A stretch of DNA of 64,000 bases. It comes from Elusimicrobiota bacterium. Its GTDB lineage: Bacteria > Elusimicrobiota > UBA8919. This document shows, one piece after another, positions 22,466 to 41,765 of this stretch. The notes below the pieces were generated by a model. The model worked only from the letters and a program-made list of their open reading frames with translations, was not told the origin of the DNA and searched no databases. Within the stretch, counting starts at the first letter, position 1. The number at the start of each line of letters is the position of its first letter. The stretch is from contig JAQUMH010000006.1 in assembly GCA_028718185.1 (NCBI GenBank), positions 62,001-126,000 of the forward strand, read 5' to 3'. Position numbers and translations under genes: made by a program.

Positions 22466-23131
22466 ATGATTAAATTTTTTAAGAAGATTTTCCATAGCAA
22501 GAACTGGCCGCTTTACAGGCAAAATGAAGAAATTTATTTGGAAGTACTTTCCGCAATGGCAGAAGCGATTGAAGCAAAAGACCATTCTACAAGAGGTCAC
22601 TCTGAAAGAATGGTCAAGTATGTAACTCATATCGGGAAGAATTTAGGGATGTCAAAACAGGAGTTGAAAGATTTGGAAATGGCTGCAATCCTTCACGATA
22701 TCGGTAAAATAGGTATTGACAAATCTGTTTTTTTGAAACCAGGGAAACTAACCCCTGAAGAATATGAAATAATTAAAAAACATTCTACAATTGGTGCAAA
22801 TATTATCAGTAGAGTAAGATTTCTTAAAGGTGCCGCAGAGTATGTAAAGCATCATCATGAACGGTATGATGGTAATGGTTATCCCGATAAGATTAAAGGA
22901 GATTTAATTCCTTTAGGCGCAAGGATACTTGCTGTTGTTGATTCCTTTGATGCTATGATGTCAGAACGTCCCTATAAAAAACCAATGACATTGGAAGAAT
23001 CATTTATAGAACTTAAAAGAAATAGCGGTACTCAGTTTGATTCAAAAATAGTTGAAGAATTTCTAAAATACGATTTCCAACCTGACCTGCCTGAACTTAA
23101 AGAGGCAGAAAAACCAAATCCCCAGGTCTAA
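22466..23131 (+). CDS. HD-GYP domain protein, putative c-di-GMP phosphodiesterase
   Basis: A compact 221-residue protein that is almost entirely HD-GYP domain. Visible motifs are HSTRGHSERM (first His), LHDIGKIGI (HD), HSTIGANI, HHHERYDGNGYPD (the GYP signature) and DSFDAMMSERPYK. The family cleaves c-di-GMP with a bi- or trinuclear metal centre. No sensor or receiver domain precedes it, only about 35 extra residues, so activity must be set by partners or expression. It can oppose the two GGDEF proteins at 31507 and 32685. The potassium-channel gene begins 2 bases after its stop, and the two are probably co-expressed. Confidence 0.9.
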   Translation: MIKFFKKIFHSKNWPLYRQNEEIYLEVLSAMAEAIEAKDHSTRGHSERMVKYVTHIGKNLGMSKQELKDLEMAAILHDIGKIGIDKSVFLKPGKLTPEEYEIIKKHSTIGANIISRVRFLKGAAEYVKHHHERYDGNGYPDKIKGDLIPLGARILAVVDSFDAMMSERPYKKPMTLEESFIELKRNSGTQFDSKIVEEFLKYDFQPDLPELKEAEKPNPQV

Positions 23132-24718: not shown

Positions 24719-25182
24719 ACTATAAAAAATTTACGATTGAAAAGAACAAAAAATACTTTAAAATATTTTTTGGAAATAGTGTGGATAAAAAAATCATCTT
24801 TGTACCGCAATGTTTAAGAAATATTAAGAAATGCAAAGCTAAAGAATTTGGAAGTTACTATTTATGTGCTGAATGCGGCGGCTGTAAGATAGCCAAAATT
24901 GTAAAAGCAGCAAAAGATACCGGTTATTTGGGGGTAAGAATTTTAAAAGGCGGCAGCACTATCAGGAAAATGGTTAAAGAGCTGAATCCCAAAGGTATTT
25001 TAGGTGTTGCTTGCTATTTTGAAGGCACTCAAGGTATCAAGGAATGCGAAAAACATAAAATTCCTGTATATTTTTATCCTCTTTCCAAAGATGGATGCGA
25101 AGGCACTGACCTCAAATTAGACGGGCTTATAAAACTAATAGAGAAAAATAAAGAAATTGTCCAAAAATCTAAAAACATCTAA
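24715..25182 (+). CDS. DUF116-family cysteine-rich protein
   Basis: A 155-residue protein. An in-frame start exists 72 bases upstream, but the ATG at 24715 makes the 4-base ATGA overlap with the upstream stop and removes an unlikely cysteine-rich leader. The conserved DUF116 layout is present: IFVPQCLRN near residue 26, a C-x2-C-x2-C cluster in LCAECGGCK, KGGSTIRKMVKE, GILGVACYFE and PLSKDGCEGT. The clustered cysteines suggest an Fe-S cluster or zinc. The biochemical role of DUF116 is unknown. Pairing with a small membrane protein is the only local clue. Confidence 0.8.
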   Translation: MNYKKFTIEKNKKYFKIFFGNSVDKKIIFVPQCLRNIKKCKAKEFGSYYLCAECGGCKIAKIVKAAKDTGYLGVRILKGGSTIRKMVKELNPKGILGVACYFEGTQGIKECEKHKIPVYFYPLSKDGCEGTDLKLDGLIKLIEKNKEIVQKSKNI

Positions 25183-25264
25183 TGGCTCGAACTTACCGAT
25201 TTATAGCAGGTTTCCAATAAAGTATTGCACTAACACCTTGAACTTAAAACAACCCCTTTTTTAC

Positions 25265-25293
25265 TTGACAGAATTGTAAAATATTCATATAAT
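25265..25293 (+). promoter_or_regulatory. Consensus promoter of the coiled-coil/phosphorelay cluster
   Basis: TTGACA at 25265-25270 and TATAAT at 25288-25293 with a 17-base spacer match the sigma70 consensus exactly. A leader of roughly 60 bases and an AGGAGG ribosome binding site at 25351-25356 precede the first coiled-coil gene at 25363. Confidence 0.85.
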
Positions 25294-25362
25294 CAATAAT
25301 GTGTGTAAAATCAAATGAAAATTGATTAGTGGAGCGTTGTCGTTATTCACAGGAGGTTTTAA

Positions 25363-26448
25363 ATGACTGAATTAAAAACTGGCGGGAATCTGGGAGAGTT
25401 GAAAAAAACTATTGAGAAAAACAGATCAGAATGGAAGCAGATTGTTGCTACAAAACAGCAGGAATGGCAGAAAAAACTGAAAGAAAAAAGCGATGAAATG
25501 ATTGTGCTTAATTCTAAATCGACATCGAAAGAGACTGAATTATTGACGCAAGTTCATAAGATAGATGGGGATATTTCTGCTATGGATTTTGAGAAAAATA
25601 ATCTTATAACCAAGAAAAATAAATTAAAAGAAGATTTGATGTTTATACAAAATGAAAGAAAAAAACAAAAGGAAAAACTGCACGAATCGACCGTGATTAC
25701 TATGAGAGGTGAGGTAGTACGAAGACAAGAAGAAGTAAATAAAAAGTTTCGTGAAAATGAAATGAAATGTGAAATAAGTAAACTTCACATTCAGGAATTA
25801 GAATCACAGGTTACAGAATTAACCAATAGATTGGCTGATGACAAAAAACGATGGCAGGAAGTCGTAAGGATGAAGGGTGACGATTTCGTATCACTTAGGG
25901 ATGAACTTGTCAATAAAGTTAAGATGTCGCAAAGTGAATATAAAGAAGAAGAAAAAGAAGTGCAAACAATGAAAGGTATTCATCAGGATGTTGAAAACAA
26001 GGTGAAGGAGAAAGAAAGGCAATTTAGGGAAAGAGAGGCAAAATGGCGGGACCAATTGACGTCGATGGAGAATGAAATTAATAAACTAAAACGCGAATTT
26101 GAATCAAAAGTAAAAATACATCAAAAAGAAATTTTGACGAGAGAAAAAGATCTTGAGGCGCTTCAGAAAGAAATGGATAGGTTTATTGAAGAATTAGCAG
26201 GCGGGGTCGGGGTAAAGTTCGAAAGTAAATCAACAGAAATAAAAGAAGATAAAGTAAAAGAAAAAGTAGAGAAAAAAGTAGAGGAACAAGCAGTACAAAA
26301 AGAAATACCTGTACTGGAAGAGCCCAAATTTATTGCATCGGTGGTATCGGTTCCTGAAAAAACCAAATTGGTTGATGAAAATAGTGAAGTTAAGACAGAA
26401 GAAACGCCAATAAAAAGATCATTTTGGAGTAAATTGTTAGGAAAATAA
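25363..26448 (+). CDS. Tryptophan-punctuated coiled-coil protein A
   Basis: A 361-residue, highly charged protein predicted to be coiled coil over about residues 5-275, with no signal peptide or membrane helix. A unit of the form W-x-x-(I/V/L)-x-x-K-x-x-E-(W/F/I)-x-x-L recurs: RSEWKQIVATKQQEW at residue 21, KRWQEVVRMKGDDF near 164, AKWRDQLTSMENEI near 227. The first 35 residues and the 160-190 segment align by eye with protein B downstream, so they are paralogues. The last 80 residues are a low-complexity Lys/Glu/Val tail ending in KRSFWSKLLGK. It heads the cluster that continues into a hybrid kinase. A scaffold or filament role is possible, but no family is recognised. Confidence 0.7.
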   Translation: MTELKTGGNLGELKKTIEKNRSEWKQIVATKQQEWQKKLKEKSDEMIVLNSKSTSKETELLTQVHKIDGDISAMDFEKNNLITKKNKLKEDLMFIQNERKKQKEKLHESTVITMRGEVVRRQEEVNKKFRENEMKCEISKLHIQELESQVTELTNRLADDKKRWQEVVRMKGDDFVSLRDELVNKVKMSQSEYKEEEKEVQTMKGIHQDVENKVKEKERQFREREAKWRDQLTSMENEINKLKREFESKVKIHQKEILTREKDLEALQKEMDRFIEELAGGVGVKFESKSTEIKEDKVKEKVEKKVEEQAVQKEIPVLEEPKFIASVVSVPEKTKLVDENSEVKTEETPIKRSFWSKLLGK

Positions 26449-26453
26449 AGAAA

Positions 26454-26523
26454 ACGCGAATAAACGCTAATCAAACGCAGATATTCGCGAATAATTCGCG
26501 TTACATTCGCGATCATTCGCGTA
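26454..26523. repeat. ATTCGCG repeat cluster between coiled-coil genes A and B
   Basis: AACGCGAA at the left pairs with TTCGCGTT in the middle, and ATTCGCG recurs four times in about 45 bases. The block fills most of the 91-base gap, and protein B's GGGGG ribosome binding site follows it. Confidence 0.65.
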
Positions 26524-26539
26524 TCTTATAGGGGGAAAC

Positions 26540-27382
26540 ATGGCAGATTTGAAATTTGATGAAAAAATGGCGGAATTCAGGAAAACCATATCGGCTAACA
26601 AGGCAGCTTGGCAGTCAATTTTGGAGAAAAACGAGCAAAAACTGCAAAAGCAATTAGAAGAAAAAGACAAACAAATATCCGAGATTAAAACAAAATATGT
26701 GCAGATGGAAGTCGATTTAAATGCTGACATTCAACGGAAACAAAAAATTCTCGATGTCACTAAAGATGAAATAAAAAATTTCAACGCGGATATTAGTGTG
26801 TTAATTAGAAAAGTAAGCGAAGAAGAAAGGACCATGAAAGAAGAAGAAAAATCACGAGAGGAAGAAATAAAGAACATACAAAGAGAAATAGAACAGGTGG
26901 GAGTAGATGCCGGCAAAAGAAACCATGAACATGAAGAAGAATGGGAATTAGTAGATGCAAAAGAAAAAAACCTAGTAGACCAATCGAAGGTGTTGCTGAG
27001 TCGTTTGGGTGAAGAACAGATACACTGGGAAGAATTGTTAAAAATGAAAGAGCAGGATTTCATAGCTATAAAAAATGAACTTGAACAACGGCTTAAAGAG
27101 TGGCAATCTGAATATCATAAAAAGGAAGAGGAAGTTCTTTCATTTAGAAAAAACAGGGAAAAACTGGAAATTCATTTAACCGAGCTTGATGAAATATCAA
27201 GTTCCCAGGAGATAAAAGTCAGGGAGCAGATATTAATAAAACAAGATGAAATCAATACTTTGAAAAGAGATCTTGCTACAATGGAAGCGGCAAATATGGA
27301 AGAAATTAAAGACAAAGAATTAGCAGTTGAGGCGCTTAAACAAGAAATAGAAAAATTCTTAGGTGTTGTGCCGAATAATTAA
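26540..27382 (+). CDS. Tryptophan-punctuated coiled-coil protein B
   Basis: A 280-residue soluble protein, coiled coil over nearly its full length. It is a shorter paralogue of protein A. FRKTISANKAAWQSIL aligns with LKKTIEKNRSEWKQIV, and QIHWEELLKMKEQDFIAI aligns with KRWQEVVRMKGDDFVSL, with the following LxxEL...WQSEY region also shared. It lacks the long Lys/Glu tail of A and ends in KFLGVVPNN. The start follows a GGGGGA site. Function is unknown; the shared motifs and tandem order suggest A, B and C assemble together. Confidence 0.7.
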   Translation: MADLKFDEKMAEFRKTISANKAAWQSILEKNEQKLQKQLEEKDKQISEIKTKYVQMEVDLNADIQRKQKILDVTKDEIKNFNADISVLIRKVSEEERTMKEEEKSREEEIKNIQREIEQVGVDAGKRNHEHEEEWELVDAKEKNLVDQSKVLLSRLGEEQIHWEELLKMKEQDFIAIKNELEQRLKEWQSEYHKKEEEVLSFRKNREKLEIHLTELDEISSSQEIKVREQILIKQDEINTLKRDLATMEAANMEEIKDKELAVEALKQEIEKFLGVVPNN

Positions 27383-27461
27383 AGGCAGGTAAAGGGGTGA
27401 GCCAGATAAAGAAAGACAAAAATTCTCTACCTCTACCTACATTTTTTCTTTACCTGTCTTT
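27381..27461. repeat. Inverted repeat between coiled-coil genes B and C
   Basis: AAAGGCAGGTAAAG at 27381-27394 pairs with CTTTACCTGTCTTT at 27448-27461 (13 of 14 bases), enclosing a pyrimidine-rich TCTACCTCTACCTAC stretch. It overlaps the end of gene B and sits just before gene C's GAGGTGAT ribosome binding site. Confidence 0.65.
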
Positions 27462-27472
27462 GAGGTGATATT

Positions 27473-29014
27473 ATGGCTAATCAATCTGATCATAATAAAT
27501 GGGCAGATGAGATTTTTAATAATGCATTAAATCAAGCGCAGGCAAAAGGTTTTCGTATCCTTGATGACAATGTGAATGAATCAATTATTAAAAGCAAAGA
27601 AGAAGAAATTATTAATCTCAGGGATTCTTTAGAAGAAATCAAAAATACCCTTAAGCAGGAATTGCAGAATGTAAAGAAAAAACTTGTTGAACGTGAAGAT
27701 GAACAAAGACCAAAAGAATTTAGGGATTTGCAGGCGACTAAGGCACGTTTGGAAACTGCTTTAAAACATTTAAAAAATAAATTAGAAATAAAGCAGGTGG
27801 AAATTGAGGAAAAAGAAAAGAAATTTACTGAATTATTAAAAGAAAAGTTAGATGAAAAAACTAAAGATTTGAAGAAATGGCATGAAATGGAGAGTTTTAA
27901 TTTAACAGAAAAAATAAAAGCACAAAATGGAGAAATAGAAGATCTTAAATCGCATGTCAAACAATGGCAAATGGAGACAAAGAGGAGAGAAGGGGAACTT
28001 ATCCTGGCGAAGGAAACGTTAGAAAAAGAAAGGGAGCATTGGTTAGAATCGGTCAGGGTAAAAGAAAATGAAATTAGAGGTTTGAAAAGTTATATATCCC
28101 AGAGAGAAGAAGAGATAGAGAAGAAGAAAAGAGATATTTCAGATTTAGAGTTTCAGATGGCGCAGAGATTAGGTGAAGCAAAAGAAAAAGAACTAAAATT
28201 AGTTGCTGCAAAGGAACATTTAGAAAAGGAAATAGAATTATTGAATAACATAATGGAAGATGAAAAAAGCCCGATAATAAAAGCAGGGATGATAAAAAGA
28301 GAAGCTCGCATTAAAGCAGAGCAATATAAAAAAGAAGAAGAGCTCAAAGTGGTTAAACAACAGCTTGAGGATTTCCGAATAAAATCACAAAATGAAAAAC
28401 TTCTCTGGGAAGAAAAACTGAAAAATAGTGAAGGGGAGATAAAACGTCTGAATTCGGAAGTTGAGCAAAAAGAGAAAAGGCTTGGTTCTGTTGAAGCATC
28501 ACTTGATAAAGAAATAAAAACCAGAAGAAACGGGGAAGAAGAAAAAAATTTGATGAAGTCGCAAATAATACTTAATGAAGCAGAATTAAAAGCAAAGCAT
28601 GTTGCAGGTCAACAGGACTTAGTTGCAATTAAGGTTGCTTTGGAAAGAGAACGCGAGGAATTAAAAAAAAGAATGGCAGAAGAAAGAATATATTGGCAAG
28701 AGCGTGTTAAGCAGATTTCTTCAGGTGAAGCTGAAATGCAGAAGAATCTGAAATCACTGCAAAAAGAATACGACGGGATAGAACAAAAATTGCTCGCCTA
28801 TGAAAGAGAATTAGTTTTAGAAAAAGAGAAACATAAAACATGGGAAGAATTAAAAGAAGCCCAGTTGAAAACAGAATATCAAAAAAAGATTCAACAACTT
28901 GAAGAACAGGAAGCAAAGTGGAAAGAAGAAAAAATAGATGGACTATACCGTGAAATGGAATTGGAAAATAAAGAACTTGAAAAAGGAATTACTGAAGAAG
29001 AAACAGAAAAATAA
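27473..29014 (+). CDS. Tryptophan-punctuated coiled-coil protein C (long)
   Basis: A 513-residue acidic/basic protein, coiled coil from about residue 25 to the end, with no membrane helix. The tryptophan unit seen in A and B repeats at least four times: EHWLESVRVKENEI, LLWEEKLKNSEGEI, IYWQERVKQISSGE and AKWKEEKIDGLY. The N-terminus differs (DHNKWADEIFNNAL). The spacing between units is roughly 90-150 residues and irregular. The gene ends 27 bases before the hybrid kinase gene, so the coiled-coil trio and the kinase are likely one transcript. SMC-like heads are absent, so it is not an SMC protein. Cytoskeletal or scaffold function is only a guess. Confidence 0.7.
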   Translation: MANQSDHNKWADEIFNNALNQAQAKGFRILDDNVNESIIKSKEEEIINLRDSLEEIKNTLKQELQNVKKKLVEREDEQRPKEFRDLQATKARLETALKHLKNKLEIKQVEIEEKEKKFTELLKEKLDEKTKDLKKWHEMESFNLTEKIKAQNGEIEDLKSHVKQWQMETKRREGELILAKETLEKEREHWLESVRVKENEIRGLKSYISQREEEIEKKKRDISDLEFQMAQRLGEAKEKELKLVAAKEHLEKEIELLNNIMEDEKSPIIKAGMIKREARIKAEQYKKEEELKVVKQQLEDFRIKSQNEKLLWEEKLKNSEGEIKRLNSEVEQKEKRLGSVEASLDKEIKTRRNGEEEKNLMKSQIILNEAELKAKHVAGQQDLVAIKVALEREREELKKRMAEERIYWQERVKQISSGEAEMQKNLKSLQKEYDGIEQKLLAYERELVLEKEKHKTWEELKEAQLKTEYQKKIQQLEEQEAKWKEEKIDGLYREMELENKELEKGITEEETEK

Positions 29015-29041
29015 AACAAACTTAACCATAGCTGCATTGTT

Positions 29042-31018
29042 ATGAGAAGAATTTTAGTTGTCGATGATGAGCAGGAAGTAAGAGAATCGCTTCGTTTTGA
29101 GTTAGGGAACCGTGGTTTTGATGTTGTAACTGCAGAAAGTGGGAAAGAGTGTCTTGCAAAAGTAAATAATGAAAGATTCGATTTAATCCTTCTTGATTTA
29201 CAAATGCCAAGGCTTGGCGGATTACAAACACTTGCAGAGATAAAAAAAACTAAATATGATACAGACGTGATTATGATGACAGGGAATGCTACTGTAGAAA
29301 CTGCTTTGGAAAGTATTAAAATAGGTGCATTTGATTATGTTATCAAACCGTTTAATTTTGATGAGTTAACAGATAAAATAGATAAATGTCTGGTAAGAGA
29401 AATTGTAGAAAAACAAAAGATTTTGGTAGTTGATAATGATTCATCTTCAGCAGATTTTCTTGTAGATCTTTTGACATTAGAAAAATTTAAAGTTGTTGTA
29501 GCAAAAGACGGCAAAACAGCAATTGAAAAAGCGATAGAGTTACAGCCCGATTTAGTGATAATGGATATAATGCTTCCCAGTATGAACGGTTGGGAAGTGG
29601 CAAAAGTATTAAAGGATAATAATAAAACCGCGCATATACCCGTAGTTATTTTTACCGCTCAGAAAACAGGAATAAAAAACGAAATTGCCTCTCTTAAATT
29701 AGGTGTTGAAGATTATATCACTCGTCCTTGTGATACCGATGTTTTGCTTGGCAAAATAAGAAATACTTTGCACAAGACAGAGAAGATAAAAGACTTGAAA
29801 GAAACGGTTGCTTTATACGAGATTACACAAGCAGTTGGTTCTTTAATGGAGTTAGAGGAGCTATTGAATCTGGTTTTGAAGTTAGCAGTTGAAATAAGTG
29901 ATTCAGACGGGGGTTCTTTATTGCTTTATTATCCGGAGAGCAAGGAATATGAAATAAAGACAATATACGGAGAATTTAGCGAGAACATTATTGGAAGACG
30001 TATTAAAGTGGGTGAAAGAATTATTGGCAGTGGTGTTATAGAAAAAACCCCGATGGTTATACATGGTCACCTGAAAGAAGATCCGCGGTTCAAACATCTG
30101 GAGGAATATAAAGAAGTAAAATCTGCAATGATACTTCCAATGGTAGTCAGGGGAACATTAATCGGTTATATTAACTTGAAGAGAACGAAAAACGAAAAAA
30201 AATTTACAATCAGAGAAACCAATTTATTGTCTGTGTTTGCTTCACAATCAGGACTCTCTATTGAGAATACTTCTTTACACCAACAAATAAAAAAACATGT
30301 AGAGGAATTGGAGCAAAAGGTCCAGGAAAGGACGCGGCAGCTACTAATGACAGAAAAATTGCGTACAATGGGTCAGGTAGCAACAAATATTGCCCACGAG
30401 TTCAAAAACTATCTTGCTATTATTAAAATGAGTGTTGAATATTGCCTGCTGAAATTACCATTAGACGAAAAAGTAAGAGCCCAGTTAAAAACTATTCTTG
30501 AAAATGAAGAACTTGCGTATCAGTCAATAAAAAATTTGTCGACATTTTCCAAACCGGCAGAAATAGCTTTTCAGCCGCAGCAAGTCAGTGATATCTTGGA
30601 TGATGCTTGTCGATTTCTGGAAATTAGATTCAGACAACAAAAAGTAAAACTTAATAATAAATATAATGGTAATAATATGCCTCTTGTACTGGTTGATAAA
30701 ACCTATATTCAATCAGTGTTTATTAATTTGCTTATTAATTCCTTGCAAGCAATAAGTATTGGCGGTGAAATTAAAATTGAAACAAGCGGTATGCAGGATA
30801 AAAAGATGGTTGATGTTACAATTACCGATACCGGTTGTGGAATTCCAGATGACAAACTTAAGAATATATTTGAGCCGTTTTTTACAACAAAGATGGATGG
30901 GTCAGGGTTGGGACTGGCAATTGCAAAGCAGATAGTTGAACATCACAGCGGGAAAATTAATGTAAAAAGTGAACAAGGGAAAGGCACTGCAGTTATAGTA
31001 TCTTTGCCGATAGCATAA
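29042..31018 (+). CDS. Hybrid sensor histidine kinase: REC-REC-GAF-HisKA-HATPase
   Basis: A 658-residue cytosolic protein. REC1 (residues about 2-120) has VVDDE, phospho-acceptor D52 in LLDLQMP and K102 in YVIKPF. REC2 (about 124-245) has D175 in IMDIMLP but R228 in YITRPC where the conserved lysine belongs. A GAF domain (about 255-410) precedes a short coiled coil, the H-box with H452 in NIAHEFKN, and the HATPase motifs TDTGCGIPD, GSGLGLAIAKQ and KGTAVIVSLP. Having receivers at the N-terminus ahead of the kinase suggests it is itself a phosphorelay target. No ribosome binding site is obvious. Partners are probably the CheY-like protein downstream and the coiled-coil proteins upstream. Confidence 0.9.
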   Translation: MRRILVVDDEQEVRESLRFELGNRGFDVVTAESGKECLAKVNNERFDLILLDLQMPRLGGLQTLAEIKKTKYDTDVIMMTGNATVETALESIKIGAFDYVIKPFNFDELTDKIDKCLVREIVEKQKILVVDNDSSSADFLVDLLTLEKFKVVVAKDGKTAIEKAIELQPDLVIMDIMLPSMNGWEVAKVLKDNNKTAHIPVVIFTAQKTGIKNEIASLKLGVEDYITRPCDTDVLLGKIRNTLHKTEKIKDLKETVALYEITQAVGSLMELEELLNLVLKLAVEISDSDGGSLLLYYPESKEYEIKTIYGEFSENIIGRRIKVGERIIGSGVIEKTPMVIHGHLKEDPRFKHLEEYKEVKSAMILPMVVRGTLIGYINLKRTKNEKKFTIRETNLLSVFASQSGLSIENTSLHQQIKKHVEELEQKVQERTRQLLMTEKLRTMGQVATNIAHEFKNYLAIIKMSVEYCLLKLPLDEKVRAQLKTILENEELAYQSIKNLSTFSKPAEIAFQPQQVSDILDDACRFLEIRFRQQKVKLNNKYNGNNMPLVLVDKTYIQSVFINLLINSLQAISIGGEIKIETSGMQDKKMVDVTITDTGCGIPDDKLKNIFEPFFTTKMDGSGLGLAIAKQIVEHHSGKINVKSEQGKGTAVIVSLPIA

Positions 31019-31094
31019 TGAACATAGAACTAAAGCAGAACAAGACACGGAACTGGCACGGAAATAGTTCAGTGGTATTTAAAGGAGAAATATA

Positions 31095-31481
31095 ATGGGA
31101 CAAAAAATTTTAATTATTGATGATGAACCTGCAATTTTAGGAATTTTGAGTGATGTGTTGACCAGCGAAGGTTACACTGTTAACGCAGCAAGCGATGGAG
31201 AAACAGGTATTGAAAAAGTAAAAGAGTTTAATCCCGCTCTTATTATTTTAGATGTAGTTCTTCCCGGTATTAACGGTTTTGAAGTTTGTAAAATATTGAA
31301 AGAAGACCAGCAGACTAAAAATATTGCTATAATTATATTAACAGGCATATCAACACTTGCAGAACATAAACAGAAAGCGTTCCAATTGGGTGCTGATGAT
31401 TACTTAACAAAACCGTTTGGTATGAGTGATTTACTTGAACGGATAAAGAAACTTATTACCGGCCAAAACAACCAAAAATGA
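31095..31481 (+). CDS. CheY-like single-domain response regulator
   Basis: A 128-residue receiver with no output domain: IIDDEPA acidic pair near residues 8-9, phospho-acceptor D53 in ILDVVLPG, the switch threonine in ILTGIS and the lysine in YLTKPFG. It has an AAGGAG ribosome binding site and follows the hybrid kinase by 76 bases, so it is the likely phosphate acceptor or shuttle in that pathway. Single-domain receivers signal by protein contact, so the coiled-coil proteins or a diguanylate cyclase nearby are conceivable targets (inference). Confidence 0.9.
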   Translation: MGQKILIIDDEPAILGILSDVLTSEGYTVNAASDGETGIEKVKEFNPALIILDVVLPGINGFEVCKILKEDQQTKNIAIIILTGISTLAEHKQKAFQLGADDYLTKPFGMSDLLERIKKLITGQNNQK

Positions 31482-31506
31482 CAGCTAAAAGATGTTTTGT
31501 AAAGCT

Positions 31507-32697
31507 CTACTCTTCGAATTCTGTTACTTTGTTCCTGCCGGTTTCCTTGGATTTATAAAGTGACATATCCGCTTTGTGGAGGACTTCGTTTGCAGTTAAA
31601 GCATCTTTAGGGTAGTGTGCAATACCGAAAGATGAGGTAACTTTTAATTTTTCTAAACCTGCAAGAATTTCTGTTTCTTCAATTTTTTCACGAATCTTTT
31701 CAGCTTTAATTTTTATACCTGCCGGGTCTGTTTGCGGAAAAATTACCACAAATTCTTCACCGCCGTATCTTGCCGCAAAATCAGTCTCGTAAATAGAATT
31801 TTTTAAGATTCCGGTAACTGTTTTTAATACCAAATCTCCTGCCTGGTGACCGTACGTATCATTAACTTTCTTGAAATGGTCGATATCCATCATTAAAATT
31901 GAAAACCTTCCGTTCCATCTTTTTGCCCTGAATTCTTCTTCTTTTAACCTTTCATTAAAATATCCGCGGCGATATAATCCCGTAAGACCGTCCGTGCGTG
32001 ACATTGCCTCAACCTTTGAGTATAAAATAGCCCGTTGTACTGCTAAAATGAGCTCTTCCACAAACGCTGCTATTTCATCGAAAAATTCTTCGTCCTTTTC
32101 GTATAACGGAGGTATTTTTGTTGAAATAATTCCCAGCGATTGTTCACCTATAAATAGGGGTACATGGATTATACCATTAGAAATAGTCTGAGTTTTGATA
32201 TTTTCGTCAATGCGAACCGGGAGTCCTTTCTGAAAGTTTTTATTACCTTCAAATATTTTCAGGTTTACATCTTTTATATTGAATTGCTCATCTAATGATT
32301 TTGCAATCAGGCCAAACATTTTTTCTAAATCTACATACGCTGCTATGTTTTTTGATAATTCGTAGATATGTAAAATATTTTTAATTGTTTTTTCATTTCT
32401 AAGAAGTTCCAATTTTGTTTTGCCTGATTCTCCTTTTACAAGTGCAAGTTTTCCCGTAAGATTACTCAATTCTTTATTGAAATTTCTTCTGCTGGAAGCC
32501 AATTGTTTATAAAACTTTTCTATAACAAGTTCGACAAGGCATAAAGTCAGAATTACGGAAATAGTAGAAAGAGGTGACGGGTGGAAAAACACTGTAAATA
32601 TTATTGACAATATAGCTGCTAATCTTGATAATATTATTCCAAATTTATATCCTATAATAAATACTAATAATGGTAAAAAATATATTATTCTTTCCAT
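31507..32697 (-). CDS. Membrane-anchored GGDEF diguanylate cyclase (no I-site)
   Basis: A 396-residue protein with two or three N-terminal hydrophobic helices (residues 1-60), a coiled coil, a GAF-like middle (about 120-225) and a GGDEF domain. The domain has DGLTGLYRRGYF, MDIDHFKKVNDTYGH and the active-site RYGGEEF. The position for the inhibitory I-site reads YETD instead of RxxD, so product inhibition at that site is probably missing. It makes c-di-GMP from GTP. Its start overlaps the end of the upstream GGDEF gene by 13 bases, so the two cyclases are co-translated. The gene converges with the CheY-like gene. Confidence 0.9.
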   Translation of the reverse strand: MERIIYFLPLLVFIIGYKFGIILSRLAAILSIIFTVFFHPSPLSTISVILTLCLVELVIEKFYKQLASSRRNFNKELSNLTGKLALVKGESGKTKLELLRNEKTIKNILHIYELSKNIAAYVDLEKMFGLIAKSLDEQFNIKDVNLKIFEGNKNFQKGLPVRIDENIKTQTISNGIIHVPLFIGEQSLGIISTKIPPLYEKDEEFFDEIAAFVEELILAVQRAILYSKVEAMSRTDGLTGLYRRGYFNERLKEEEFRAKRWNGRFSILMMDIDHFKKVNDTYGHQAGDLVLKTVTGILKNSIYETDFAARYGGEEFVVIFPQTDPAGIKIKAEKIREKIEETEILAGLEKLKVTSSFGIAHYPKDALTANEVLHKADMSLYKSKETGRNKVTEFEE

Positions 32698-34016
32698 ATA
32701 GTTCTGTTTCTCCCTGACATTTTAGCTTTATAAAGTCTTTCATCTGCCCTGCGGATAAGCTGATGATGTTCGTTAGCATCATCAGGATAAGATGAAATTC
32801 CCAGAGAGACGGTAACGGGTTGTCCTTCTATTGTTTCCTTTTGAAATTCGGTTCTTATGGTTTCCGCAATTTTCACACAAACATCTTTTGATGTTTCCGG
32901 TAATATGACAGCAAATTCTTCACCGCCATAACGTGCAACAACATCCGTTTCCCGGCAAACCTGCTTCAAAACATGTGAAAATTGTTTTAAAACTTCATCT
33001 CCCTTTTGGTGTCCATAAGTGTCATTAAACTTCTTAAAATGGTCAATATCACAGAGAATTAAACAAAGAAGTGTTTTAAACCTTGAAGCTCTTGTCATTT
33101 CTTCTTGTAATCTTTCGTCAAAAAATTTGCGGACATATACGCCGGTTAAGCCGTCTATAATTGAAAGTTCTTTTGTTTTTTCTAGCAGTGTAAGATTTTC
33201 TACCGTCATTTCAGCGACATTCACCAATATTGAAATTATAGACATATCTTCTTGTGTAAATCTGTTTTCTTTATCAGAATCCAGCCGTACAATTCCGATA
33301 ATATTTTTGTCGCTTAATAAAGGGACTGCTATAACGGATTTTGTAGCTTTTGGAATTGCAGTATATTCAAAACGGTAATCTTTTATAGTATTTTGAATCA
33401 ACAGTGAAGATCTTTTCCTGACTACCCAGGCGTCAAACGTATCAGGCGGTCTATCGTCACTGGGAAGAAATGTCGTAAAGCGGGTGTCGTTGCAATTTAA
33501 TATTTTTTTTATAATTGTTAAAAGTTTTACTTTCAAATCAGGCAAATTTGTGACTTTTATTATTTCCTTAGTTGCAAGTGTAAGATTTTTGTATTGGGCA
33601 ATTCTTCCCGAAACTTTTTCTAAATTGCTTCTATTTGATAAAAGTTCTTTTCCCATATTTTCAATTGCGGAAGAAATATCTGCAAGTTCACGGTTGTTTG
33701 AAGATTGCTGATATTTTGCCCTGTCATTAAGAAGGTGAATAAGCCAGATGATAGCCCATATGGAAGCTATCTCACCTAAAAGGACAAGTCTTCCGGAAGC
33801 ATTGGTAAAATTCATTCCGAGGAGTCCCGTTACACTTGTTAAAAGTGCAACAAGGTCCGTTATAAGTGATTCAACAAAAAATGAAGAGGCGAATATTAAT
33901 AAAATAAAAAATGAAAATATATCAATCGTTTTGTTCTGGAATATTAACAAAAGTGAAGATATTCCAAGAAAAGCAGTAAGAATTATAACAGGTCCGGTTG
34001 TTTTTTTTGATATCAT
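32685..34016 (-). CDS. Membrane-anchored GAF-GGDEF diguanylate cyclase (with I-site)
   Basis: A 443-residue protein with three or four N-terminal hydrophobic helices (residues about 8-95), a coiled coil, a GAF domain (about 150-275, with SVIAVPLLSDKNIIGIVRLD) and a C-terminal GGDEF domain. The catalytic loop is RYGGEEF, preceded by RETD, a proper RxxD inhibitory I-site. Metal and GTP contacts LCDIDHFKKFNDTYGH are intact. It has the same plan as its downstream neighbour but differs at the I-site, so the pair may respond differently to c-di-GMP build-up. The HD-GYP protein at 22466 could remove the product. Confidence 0.9.
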   Translation of the reverse strand: MISKKTTGPVIILTAFLGISSLLLIFQNKTIDIFSFFILLIFASSFFVESLITDLVALLTSVTGLLGMNFTNASGRLVLLGEIASIWAIIWLIHLLNDRAKYQQSSNNRELADISSAIENMGKELLSNRSNLEKVSGRIAQYKNLTLATKEIIKVTNLPDLKVKLLTIIKKILNCNDTRFTTFLPSDDRPPDTFDAWVVRKRSSLLIQNTIKDYRFEYTAIPKATKSVIAVPLLSDKNIIGIVRLDSDKENRFTQEDMSIISILVNVAEMTVENLTLLEKTKELSIIDGLTGVYVRKFFDERLQEEMTRASRFKTLLCLILCDIDHFKKFNDTYGHQKGDEVLKQFSHVLKQVCRETDVVARYGGEEFAVILPETSKDVCVKIAETIRTEFQKETIEGQPVTVSLGISSYPDDANEHHQLIRRADERLYKAKMSGRNRTIWKE

Positions 34017-39780: not shown

Positions 39781-41394
39781 ATGAAAGACAAAGAAAAAAC
39801 AAAAAATCAACTTATAAATGAAATTGAACAACTGCGTCATCAGGTTTCTAAACTAAAAATGTCGAAATTTGGGAAAATAAAAACAGTATATAATTTAAAT
39901 AAGAATGAAAAAAAGTATATGCATCTTTTTGAAAGTGCAGTTGATACGATTTTAATAGCAGATGTAAAAACAGGAATAATATTGGATGCAAATAAAAATG
40001 TTAAATCGTTAACAGGTTATTCAAAAAAGGAAATTATAGGCAGTAATCGTTCTAAATTACATTCTCCGGATAAATTAAAGTATTATCATCAACATTTTTG
40101 CGAGCATATTAAAAAAGGCATGGTTTTCGATAATGAAGCAGAGATTGTTAGAAAAGACGGAACTACTGTTCCGGTAAGTATAAATGCACATGTAATAAAA
40201 ATTGGAGATAAAAAAGTAATTCAGGGGATATTTCGTGATATTACTGATCGTAAGAAAGCAGAGAAAAATATAAGGGAAAAAGAAGAGAAGTACCGGACAC
40301 TTTATGAAAGTTCTAAAGATGCAATAATGACTCTTGCTCCGCCGGATTGGAATTTTACAACCGGCAATAATTCTACAATATCTATGTTCAGAGCGAAAAA
40401 TGAAAAAGAGTTTACTTCAAGAAAACCATATGAACTTTCTCCGCGGTATCAACCGGACGGCAGGTTATCAATGGAAAAAGCACTTGAAATGATACAAATA
40501 GCAATGGAAAAAGGTTCTAATTATTTTGAGTGGATGCATAAAAGGATAAACGGCGAAGAATTTCCTGCAACTGTTTTACTTACAAGAGTAGAAATTGGTA
40601 ATAATAAATATTTACAAGCTACCGTAAGGGATGTTACTGAATACTATAAAATAGAAAAAGAAAAGGAATCATTAAATCAGCAACTTATCCAGTCTGAGAA
40701 AATGGCCGGGATTGGTATTCTGACAGCCGGAGTTGCACATGAATTCAATAATGTACTTCAAATAATCAATAGTAACATAGAATATGCAAAAAGAATAGAA
40801 AATATTAATAATATCAGGGAAATTATGGATAAAATATTAACTACTAGTGACAGAGGCAGTAAAATTATTAAAAATTTATTTACTTTTGCAAGACAAAAAT
40901 CACATCATGTAGAAATGAGTAATATTATTGAATCTATCGAAGCTGTATTATCAATAGTGGAAAGGCAACTATCCAGACAAAATATAAAGATAGTTAGAAA
41001 ATACGGCAAGATACCACACATTAGTTTTAATATATCAGAGATGCAACAGGTATTTTTGAATTTAATAATAAATGCCCGTGATGCTATGTCGTTTGAAGGT
41101 GGTAAGCTGGAAATAAGTATCAGGCAAGCTAATAAAACTATTGAAATAAAATTTAGTGATACCGGGCAAGGAATAAAAAAAGATAATATCAACAAAATAT
41201 TTGACCCGTTCTTCACTACTAAGGGTATACTTGGTGGTGGAAAAATGCCCGGACACGGTGAAGAAGGGACGGGACTTGGATTGCCGGTTTCACATGGTAT
41301 TATTAAAAGGCATGGCGGGAGCATTACAGTTGAAAGCGAAGAGGGAAAAGGGACCATCTTTACCATAAAATTACCTGTTAAAAATAGGAACTGA
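39781..41394 (+). CDS. Soluble PAS-PAS sensor histidine kinase
   Basis: A 537-residue protein without membrane helices: a short coiled coil (residues 1-35), PAS1 (about 45-165, with GYSKKEIIGSNRSKL), PAS2 (about 175-290), the HisKA box with H320 in AGVAHEFNN, and HATPase motifs (N-box NLIINARDAM, FSDTGQGIK, GTGLGLPVSHG, GTIFTIKLP). It phosphorylates the receiver encoded 5 bases after its stop. PAS pockets suggest a redox, light or small-ligand signal, but the sequence does not say which. It diverges from comEC with its own likely promoter. Confidence 0.92.
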   Translation: MKDKEKTKNQLINEIEQLRHQVSKLKMSKFGKIKTVYNLNKNEKKYMHLFESAVDTILIADVKTGIILDANKNVKSLTGYSKKEIIGSNRSKLHSPDKLKYYHQHFCEHIKKGMVFDNEAEIVRKDGTTVPVSINAHVIKIGDKKVIQGIFRDITDRKKAEKNIREKEEKYRTLYESSKDAIMTLAPPDWNFTTGNNSTISMFRAKNEKEFTSRKPYELSPRYQPDGRLSMEKALEMIQIAMEKGSNYFEWMHKRINGEEFPATVLLTRVEIGNNKYLQATVRDVTEYYKIEKEKESLNQQLIQSEKMAGIGILTAGVAHEFNNVLQIINSNIEYAKRIENINNIREIMDKILTTSDRGSKIIKNLFTFARQKSHHVEMSNIIESIEAVLSIVERQLSRQNIKIVRKYGKIPHISFNISEMQQVFLNLIINARDAMSFEGGKLEISIRQANKTIEIKFSDTGQGIKKDNINKIFDPFFTTKGILGGGKMPGHGEEGTGLGLPVSHGIIKRHGGSITVESEEGKGTIFTIKLPVKNRN

Positions 41395-41399
41395 ACTCG

Positions 41400-41765
41400 A
41401 TGGTTAAATTAAAAAAAATTCTTATAGTAGATGATGAAAAAGAATTCTGTGAATTATTAGTGGAATTATTACATATTGAAGGTTATCATTCAAAGTATGC
41501 ATTAAACGGGCAAAGTGCCATAAAACTATGTAAATCTGGAAGGTTTGATATTATATTTATGGATTTGCTTATGCCGGGCATTCATGGGGATGAGTTATTA
41601 GATAAAATAAAAAAAATATCGCCTAAAACAAAAGTTTTTATTATAACAGGGCGGTGGTTAGATGAAAACAATAAAAAGAAACTTGTACAAAAAGGGATAT
41701 CCGGGTATTTGGAAAAACCGTTTCAGATAGAAAAAATATTAAAAATACTCAAAAAGTTAAAATAA
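41400..41765 (+). CDS. Single-domain response regulator paired with the PAS kinase
   Basis: A 121-residue receiver with IVDDEKEF, phospho-acceptor D55 in IFMDLLMPG, switch threonine in FIITG and the lysine in YLEKPFQ. It lacks an output domain, so it passes the phosphate on or acts by protein contact. It begins 5 bases after the kinase gene, and the pair forms a clear two-component operon. Confidence 0.92.
   Translation: MVKLKKILIVDDEKEFCELLVELLHIEGYHSKYALNGQSAIKLCKSGRFDIIFMDLLMPGIHGDELLDKIKKISPKTKVFIITGRWLDENNKKKLVQKGISGYLEKPFQIEKILKILKKLK

Follow-up and report, generated by a model that had tools for sequence, protein, structure and literature searches.

What is the role of three tandem coiled-coil genes that lie ahead of genes for a two-component kinase and a CheY-like receiver, and with which machinery do their products work? 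The question is raised by a locus in a 64,000-nucleotide stretch (hereafter, the window) of an uncultured Elusimicrobiota bacterium (GenBank assembly GCA_028718185.1, contig JAQUMH010000006.1, positions 62,001 to 126,000), where the genes are denoted A, B and C. An earlier note, made from the sequence of the window, had proposed a phosphorelay-controlled filament or scaffold, perhaps positioning cell-envelope or motility machinery. Sequence comparison leads us to favour, at slightly better than even chances, the reading that A and B, probably together with C, are cytoplasmic scaffold, linker or adaptor rods of a non-flagellar FliF-FliG/MotAB motor under two-component control; the rods would then probably belong to a surface or gliding machine not yet described.

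Coiled-coil rods with a conserved register break

A and B are each other's sole relatives in their genome (G000), and their similarity, first noticed by eye at both ends of the motif region, extends along the whole rods (26% identity, 284 aa, E=3e-19). The orthologue of A in G001, a genome of the same Elusimicrobiota family (f1, 8 genomes), is 56% identical. All three proteins are predicted helical rods in which neither a membrane segment nor a signal peptide is evident, in agreement with their initial description as soluble coiled coils. That they belong to no described family also holds: Pfam and NCBIfam give nothing beyond weak SMC-type coiled-coil similarity in A, and a PDB search with the core defined below returned generic coiled coils only.

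The AlphaFold model of A consists of one helix (residues 10-279, about 40 nm at 1.5 Å per residue), a disordered region (279-349) and a short C-terminal helix. An SFW-x-(K/R) C-terminus is common to the A orthologues of three genera and occurs in no other protein of the compared loci; in A it reads SFWSKLLGK, a candidate docking motif for the membrane or a partner. In this model A is one rod that ends in a disordered tail and the conserved SFW motif; a linker or a tether would fit it as well as a filament would.

The tryptophan unit, W-x-E-x-[VL]-x-x-K-x-x-[ED]-[IF] in its strict form, had been said to recur. It does so between the proteins, being found once each in A (residue 164), B (163) and C (190), and there is no repeat within any one of them. 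Among the window proteins the strict unit is confined to these three, and none of 20,000 mono or heptad-preserving shuffles produced it in all three, the pattern having been chosen after it was seen. In nine of nine family members tested, with identities falling to about 20%, the heptad phase across the unit shifts by exactly one residue (3 to 4). Thus, the unit marks a conserved break of the coiled-coil register, and may act as a hinge or docking site.

A profile of the core, about 95 residues around the W unit, was made from the A and B sequences of three genera and applied with best-domain scores, the unfiltered full-sequence HMM scores being misleading for giant proteins (negative via bias correction). 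The profile picks out a single-copy homologue, S, that occurs in two more genera, at 82 and 72 bits, as well as the paralogues E (68 bits) and D (61 bits) in a third genus. Reversed sequences reach 16.8 bits at most, and the RecN coiled coil of the window scores 1.3 bits. A, B, S, D and E all exceed the controls and share the W/K/F positions and the register shift, save that the core Trp is missing from D and E; five positions of the ten-row core alignment do not vary (L19, K33, F37, E43 and E59).

C, which the earlier note had placed with A and B on the strength of the shared unit, did not prove to be their homologue. Its score against the A/B profile, 2.4 bits, lies inside its own shuffle range (maximum 6.0) and the phase change across its W unit is different (3 to 0), so that C is rejected as a family member at this sensitivity. 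Among 12 genomes searched, an orthologue of C was found in G001 only (59%). Its model, of lower confidence, shows long helices with breaks near residues 24-32, 72-76, 263-267 and 379-385. C is probably a third partner of A and B.

Strong core matches are restricted to f1 (6 of 8 genomes) among 295 Elusimicrobiota genomes. Among the compared-locus proteins, the threshold is otherwise exceeded only by two coiled-coil giants from G011 and by a single G001 coiled coil. The matches G040:C69 (a short open reading frame, not coiled-coil-like) and G281:C33 are weak and appear to be chance; we give them no weight. A wider contig search with A alone gave no match, and one with the core alignment gave five loci, all in Elusimicrobia; as the latter had one usable peptide pattern only, it is weak evidence for the core being absent outside Elusimicrobia. 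Two observations concern related coiled coils. A G001 coiled-coil protein (L015:12418-13695) that matches the core at 26.5 bits, with a membrane segment and a propeller-like C-terminus, is related (33%) to a G077 coiled-coil protein (L105:4505-6589). G011 has three tandem coiled coils of 644-808 aa (L021, G011:C25, 6718-13757, minus strand), two of them with multiple weak core matches, and no FliG within the 17 kb read.

FliG and MotAB without flagellar export

In the flagellum, FliG is the rotor protein that receives the torque. We observe FliG_C in 120 of the 295 Elusimicrobiota genomes (20 of the 60 nearest) and FlhA in 3 (1 of the 60), both searches being positive in the same four flagellated controls. 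The window's own genome and all its f1 relatives are without FlhA, and FliM was found in 0 of 6 f1 genomes tested (controls positive in both cases). Three FliG_C loci are present in the own genome: two encode FliFG-MotA-MotB-MotB (L044 on contig C9 and L045 on C12), and the third encodes PorV, FliG and a long proline-rich protein (L043 on C3). The FliG part of the fusion matches Thermotoga maritima FliG 1lkv (E=3e-32); the FliF C-terminal family exceeds the Pfam cut-off in the C12 paralogue, while the C9 protein is FliF-like by eye only. From these matches and the absence of FlhA we conclude that FliG is joined in one protein to a membrane part resembling FliF, and that flagellar export is lacking.

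As in the bacterial flagellar motor, a single operon combines MotA and MotB/OmpA with the middle and C-terminal domains of FliG and a domain resembling the C-terminal one of FliF. Unlike in the flagellar motor, the FliF-like and FliG parts are fused, and the loci have outer-membrane PorV-like, TPR/HEAT and rod proteins instead; unlike in the flagellum, FliM is lacking in the six f1 genomes and FlhA in 292 of the 295. The Elusimicrobiota FliF-FliG/MotAB motor is a variant of a known motor type.

The link between rods and motor comes from the gene neighbourhoods of relatives. In G004 and G006 (genera g5 and g4) the order is PorV-like proteins, kinase, FlgD-Ig-like, CheY, TPR/HEAT, S, FliF-FliG, MotA and two MotB, S lying directly upstream of the fusion; this gives substance to the suggested tie with a motility or envelope machine. 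In G002 and G005 (g3) we find CheY, kinase, double receiver, CheY, TPR/HEAT and four coiled coils including A, and in G001 (g2), A, B, receiver protein, C, kinase and CheY. Contig C1 of the own genome carries CheY, TPR/HEAT and a small coiled coil, the first two being orthologues of the g3 pair ahead of the rods. Comparison of these orders shows that the rod and motor modules are joined in g4 and g5 and split in g1-g3. Signalling genes adjoin the coiled coils in all six f1 genomes with a strong match, the window genome included; the kinase-free neighbourhoods that would have marked the cluster as coincidental are thus not seen there.

Beyond f1, the last gene of a PorV-FliFG-MotA-MotB-MotB operon in G149 (family f23; L119) encodes a W-unit coiled coil, and in other families the gene directly behind FliG encodes either a coiled-coil giant of 1600-2100 aa or a coiled-coil protein rich in proline. 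Proteins homologous to the G077 pair are encoded after FliG in G036, G271, G042, G053, G034, G040, G029, G044, G056, G027 and G121, and weaker homologues in G000 and G011. With the core, the giants of G036, G077, G227 and G271 reach 16-23 bits, vs at most 6.0 in 100 heptad shuffles each; that of G227 follows a PorV-like gene, FliG being on another contig. FliG is present in 15 of 15 core-positive genomes vs 120 of 295 overall (Fisher 8e-7), and in 13 of 13 after removal of two doubtful core matches (6e-6). In six genomes (G004, G006, G036, G077, G149 and G271) no more than a few kb separate the core from FliG. Neither the association nor this proximity is corrected for relatedness. In two loci (L054, G011:C3; L122, G029:C2) a small protein, FlbD-like by eye, is encoded between the FliG-coiled coil pair and MotA-MotB.

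The window locus and its signalling genes

All five open reading frames lie on one strand where the earlier note had placed them, and the consensus promoter ahead of A is perfect. Given the inverted repeats in the A/B and B/C gaps, a single transcript is plausible only, and we treat it as putative.

Features of the locus (window coordinates)
Feature	Position	Strand	Basis or remark
Sigma-70-type promoter, TTGACA-17-TATAAT	25265..25293	+	12/12 consensus; sole 12/12 match within 25100-31600
A, 361 aa coiled-coil rod	25363..26448	+	rod helix at 10-279; tail 279-349 disordered; ends in SFWSKLLGK
W core of A, residues 139-233	25777..26061	+	core profile 113.8 bits
Strict W unit of A, WQEVVRMKGDDF, residue 164	25852..25887	+	located at heptad phase shift
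C-terminal motif of A, SFWSKLLGK	26410..26445	+	kept in A orthologues
Palindromic ATTCGCG repeats, A/B gap	26453..26524		sequence
B, 280 aa coiled-coil rod, A paralogue	26540..27382	+	alignment with A
W core of B, residues 138-232	26951..27235	+	core profile
Strict W unit of B, WEELLKMKEQDF, residue 163	27026-27061	+	pattern match
14-nt inverted repeat, hairpin, B/C gap	27381..27461		fold z-score -2.1
C, 513 aa long helical protein	27473..29014	+	open reading frame, predicted structure
W unit of C, WLESVRVKENEI, residue 190	28040..28075	+	pattern only, no profile match
Soluble histidine kinase, REC-REC-GAF-HisKA-HATPase	29042..31018	+	Pfam, motif positions
Stand-alone CheY-like receiver	31095..31481	+	Pfam

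The two N-terminal receivers of the kinase are recovered by Pfam, as is the single receiver of the downstream gene. The HisKA domain, at 26.0 bits, is slightly below the Pfam cut-off of 26.9, and the conserved H, N and G motifs and the receiver Asp are present; the locus thus encodes HisKA, HATPase and receiver domains, and the key residues are in place. In the second receiver Arg replaces the conserved Lys, in G000 and G001 alike, hence this domain may serve docking instead of phosphorylation.

Further signalling genes occur nearby. Two GGDEF proteins, one with a GAF match, are encoded directly downstream (31507-34016, minus strand, 13 bp overlap), convergently with the CheY gene, and 22466-23131 holds a gene for an HD-domain protein (HD-GYP-like). 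Another kinase, PAS-HisKA-HATPase, is encoded 8 kb downstream together with a CheY-like receiver that follows it (39781-41765).

Alternative readings and known motors

If the rods serve the motor, the latter would comprise the FliF-FliG fusion, the MotA/MotB stator homologues, and outer-membrane and periplasmic partners, and the rods would join its FliG-bearing inner-membrane part to its regulators. FliG and the MotA loop would face the cytoplasm, on the same side as A-C, which have no evident membrane helix or signal peptide; thus, the topology fits. The kinase and the CheY-like protein, through presumed phosphotransfer, would set the place or time of motor work, in the manner of CheY or AglZ, the controlling step being the binding of phosphorylated CheY or receiver to the rods or to FliG. 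The W unit at the one-residue register break would be a hinge or docking site.

Several observations weigh against this reading. The rods are not beside FliG/MotAB in the own genome, where the motor genes are on other contigs, nor in G001. FliG occurs without a core match in the f1 genomes G003 and G007, which means that the motor can do without the rods, unless the drafts miss them. The association of the core with FliG is uncorrected for relatedness. The giants match the core weakly, and coiled coils readily give false homology. Finally, the G001 cluster is preceded by Wza-/Wzz-type polysaccharide export genes and followed by an O-antigen ligase-like gene. The last observation could mean that A-C are part of an apparatus for secreting polysaccharide or assembling the envelope, the kinase controlling export, but such genes flank the cluster neither in the window nor in the other f1 loci examined, and we consider this improbable.

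A-C may instead form a cytoskeletal or polar scaffold of generic type, positioning a two-component hub, with no motor tie and with the FliG neighbourhoods secondary: the kinase and CheY are constant neighbours in 6 of 6 f1 genomes, and FliG-MotAB adjoins the rods in just 2 of 6. Against such a scaffold stand the W-unit coiled coil within the motor operon L119 of a different family and the giants after FliG in several families, and we regard it as unlikely, if a serious candidate. The similarity of A/B to S and the giants might also be convergent, the locus then being an ordinary kinase locus with lineage-specific coiled coils; the failure of C in the profile test, the low scores of the giants and the dominance of Lys/Glu-rich sequence all agree with that. 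Against it, S scores above 70 bits with the reversed and heptad-shuffled controls far below, the W-K-F positions and the identical register shift are common to nine proteins, and the RecN coiled coil stays at the background level given above; we consider convergence improbable. Within the motor reading, we put forward only tentatively, as a possibility we doubt, a distinct ion-driven surface motor in which a MotAB-driven FliF-FliG ring would act on or through W-core rods, from the 280 aa size class of A/B/S to giants of 1600-2100 aa, with no filament and with steering by kinase and CheY.

Gliding or surface movement would be the likely output of the motor, by analogy with Agl-Glt gliding of Myxococcus, where a MotAB-type motor works with TPR and OmpA-type proteins and a cytoplasmic regulator is co-localized with the motor (PMC3169522, PMC9389320); it may alternatively be energised secretion or envelope work. 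The S loci of the relatives carry parts of these general types, MotAB-type genes with TPR and OmpA-type partners, a likeness that may or may not reflect orthology to Agl/Glt proteins; they differ by the FliG-type rotor protein, FliG having no mention in PMC3169522. In A, B and C Pfam detects no receiver domain, and the CheY-like receiver is a separate protein, unlike in AglZ, which combines a receiver with a coiled coil. An identity as a defence system was rejected, the Zorya, Lamassu and Jet matches being MotB or generic coiled-coil matches. As in Zorya, the MotB homologue scores with the ZorB models; unlike in Zorya, MotA has no ZorA match, the rods have no match, FliG accompanies the MotA/MotB genes, and the nine proteins scanned gave no further Zorya match, ZorC/D/E not having been searched genome-wide. 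A literature search on FliG in Elusimicrobia with gliding, or on Elusimicrobiota motility, found nothing relevant, most subscription journals being outside its reach, and the W-core rod family and its FliG link appear to be undescribed.

Rotor proteins are known from filament-less species, and an alternative function, left unnamed, has been suggested for them in a recent survey that does not mention Elusimicrobia (PMC12199754). Elusimicrobiota are a phylum in which FliG commonly occurs without the flagellar export gate, and with recurrent coiled-coil, MotAB and signalling partners. Here the role of filament-less rotor proteins, left open in that survey, would be tied to named, testable genes, and a hitherto unannotated coiled-coil family gains a hypothesis of its function.

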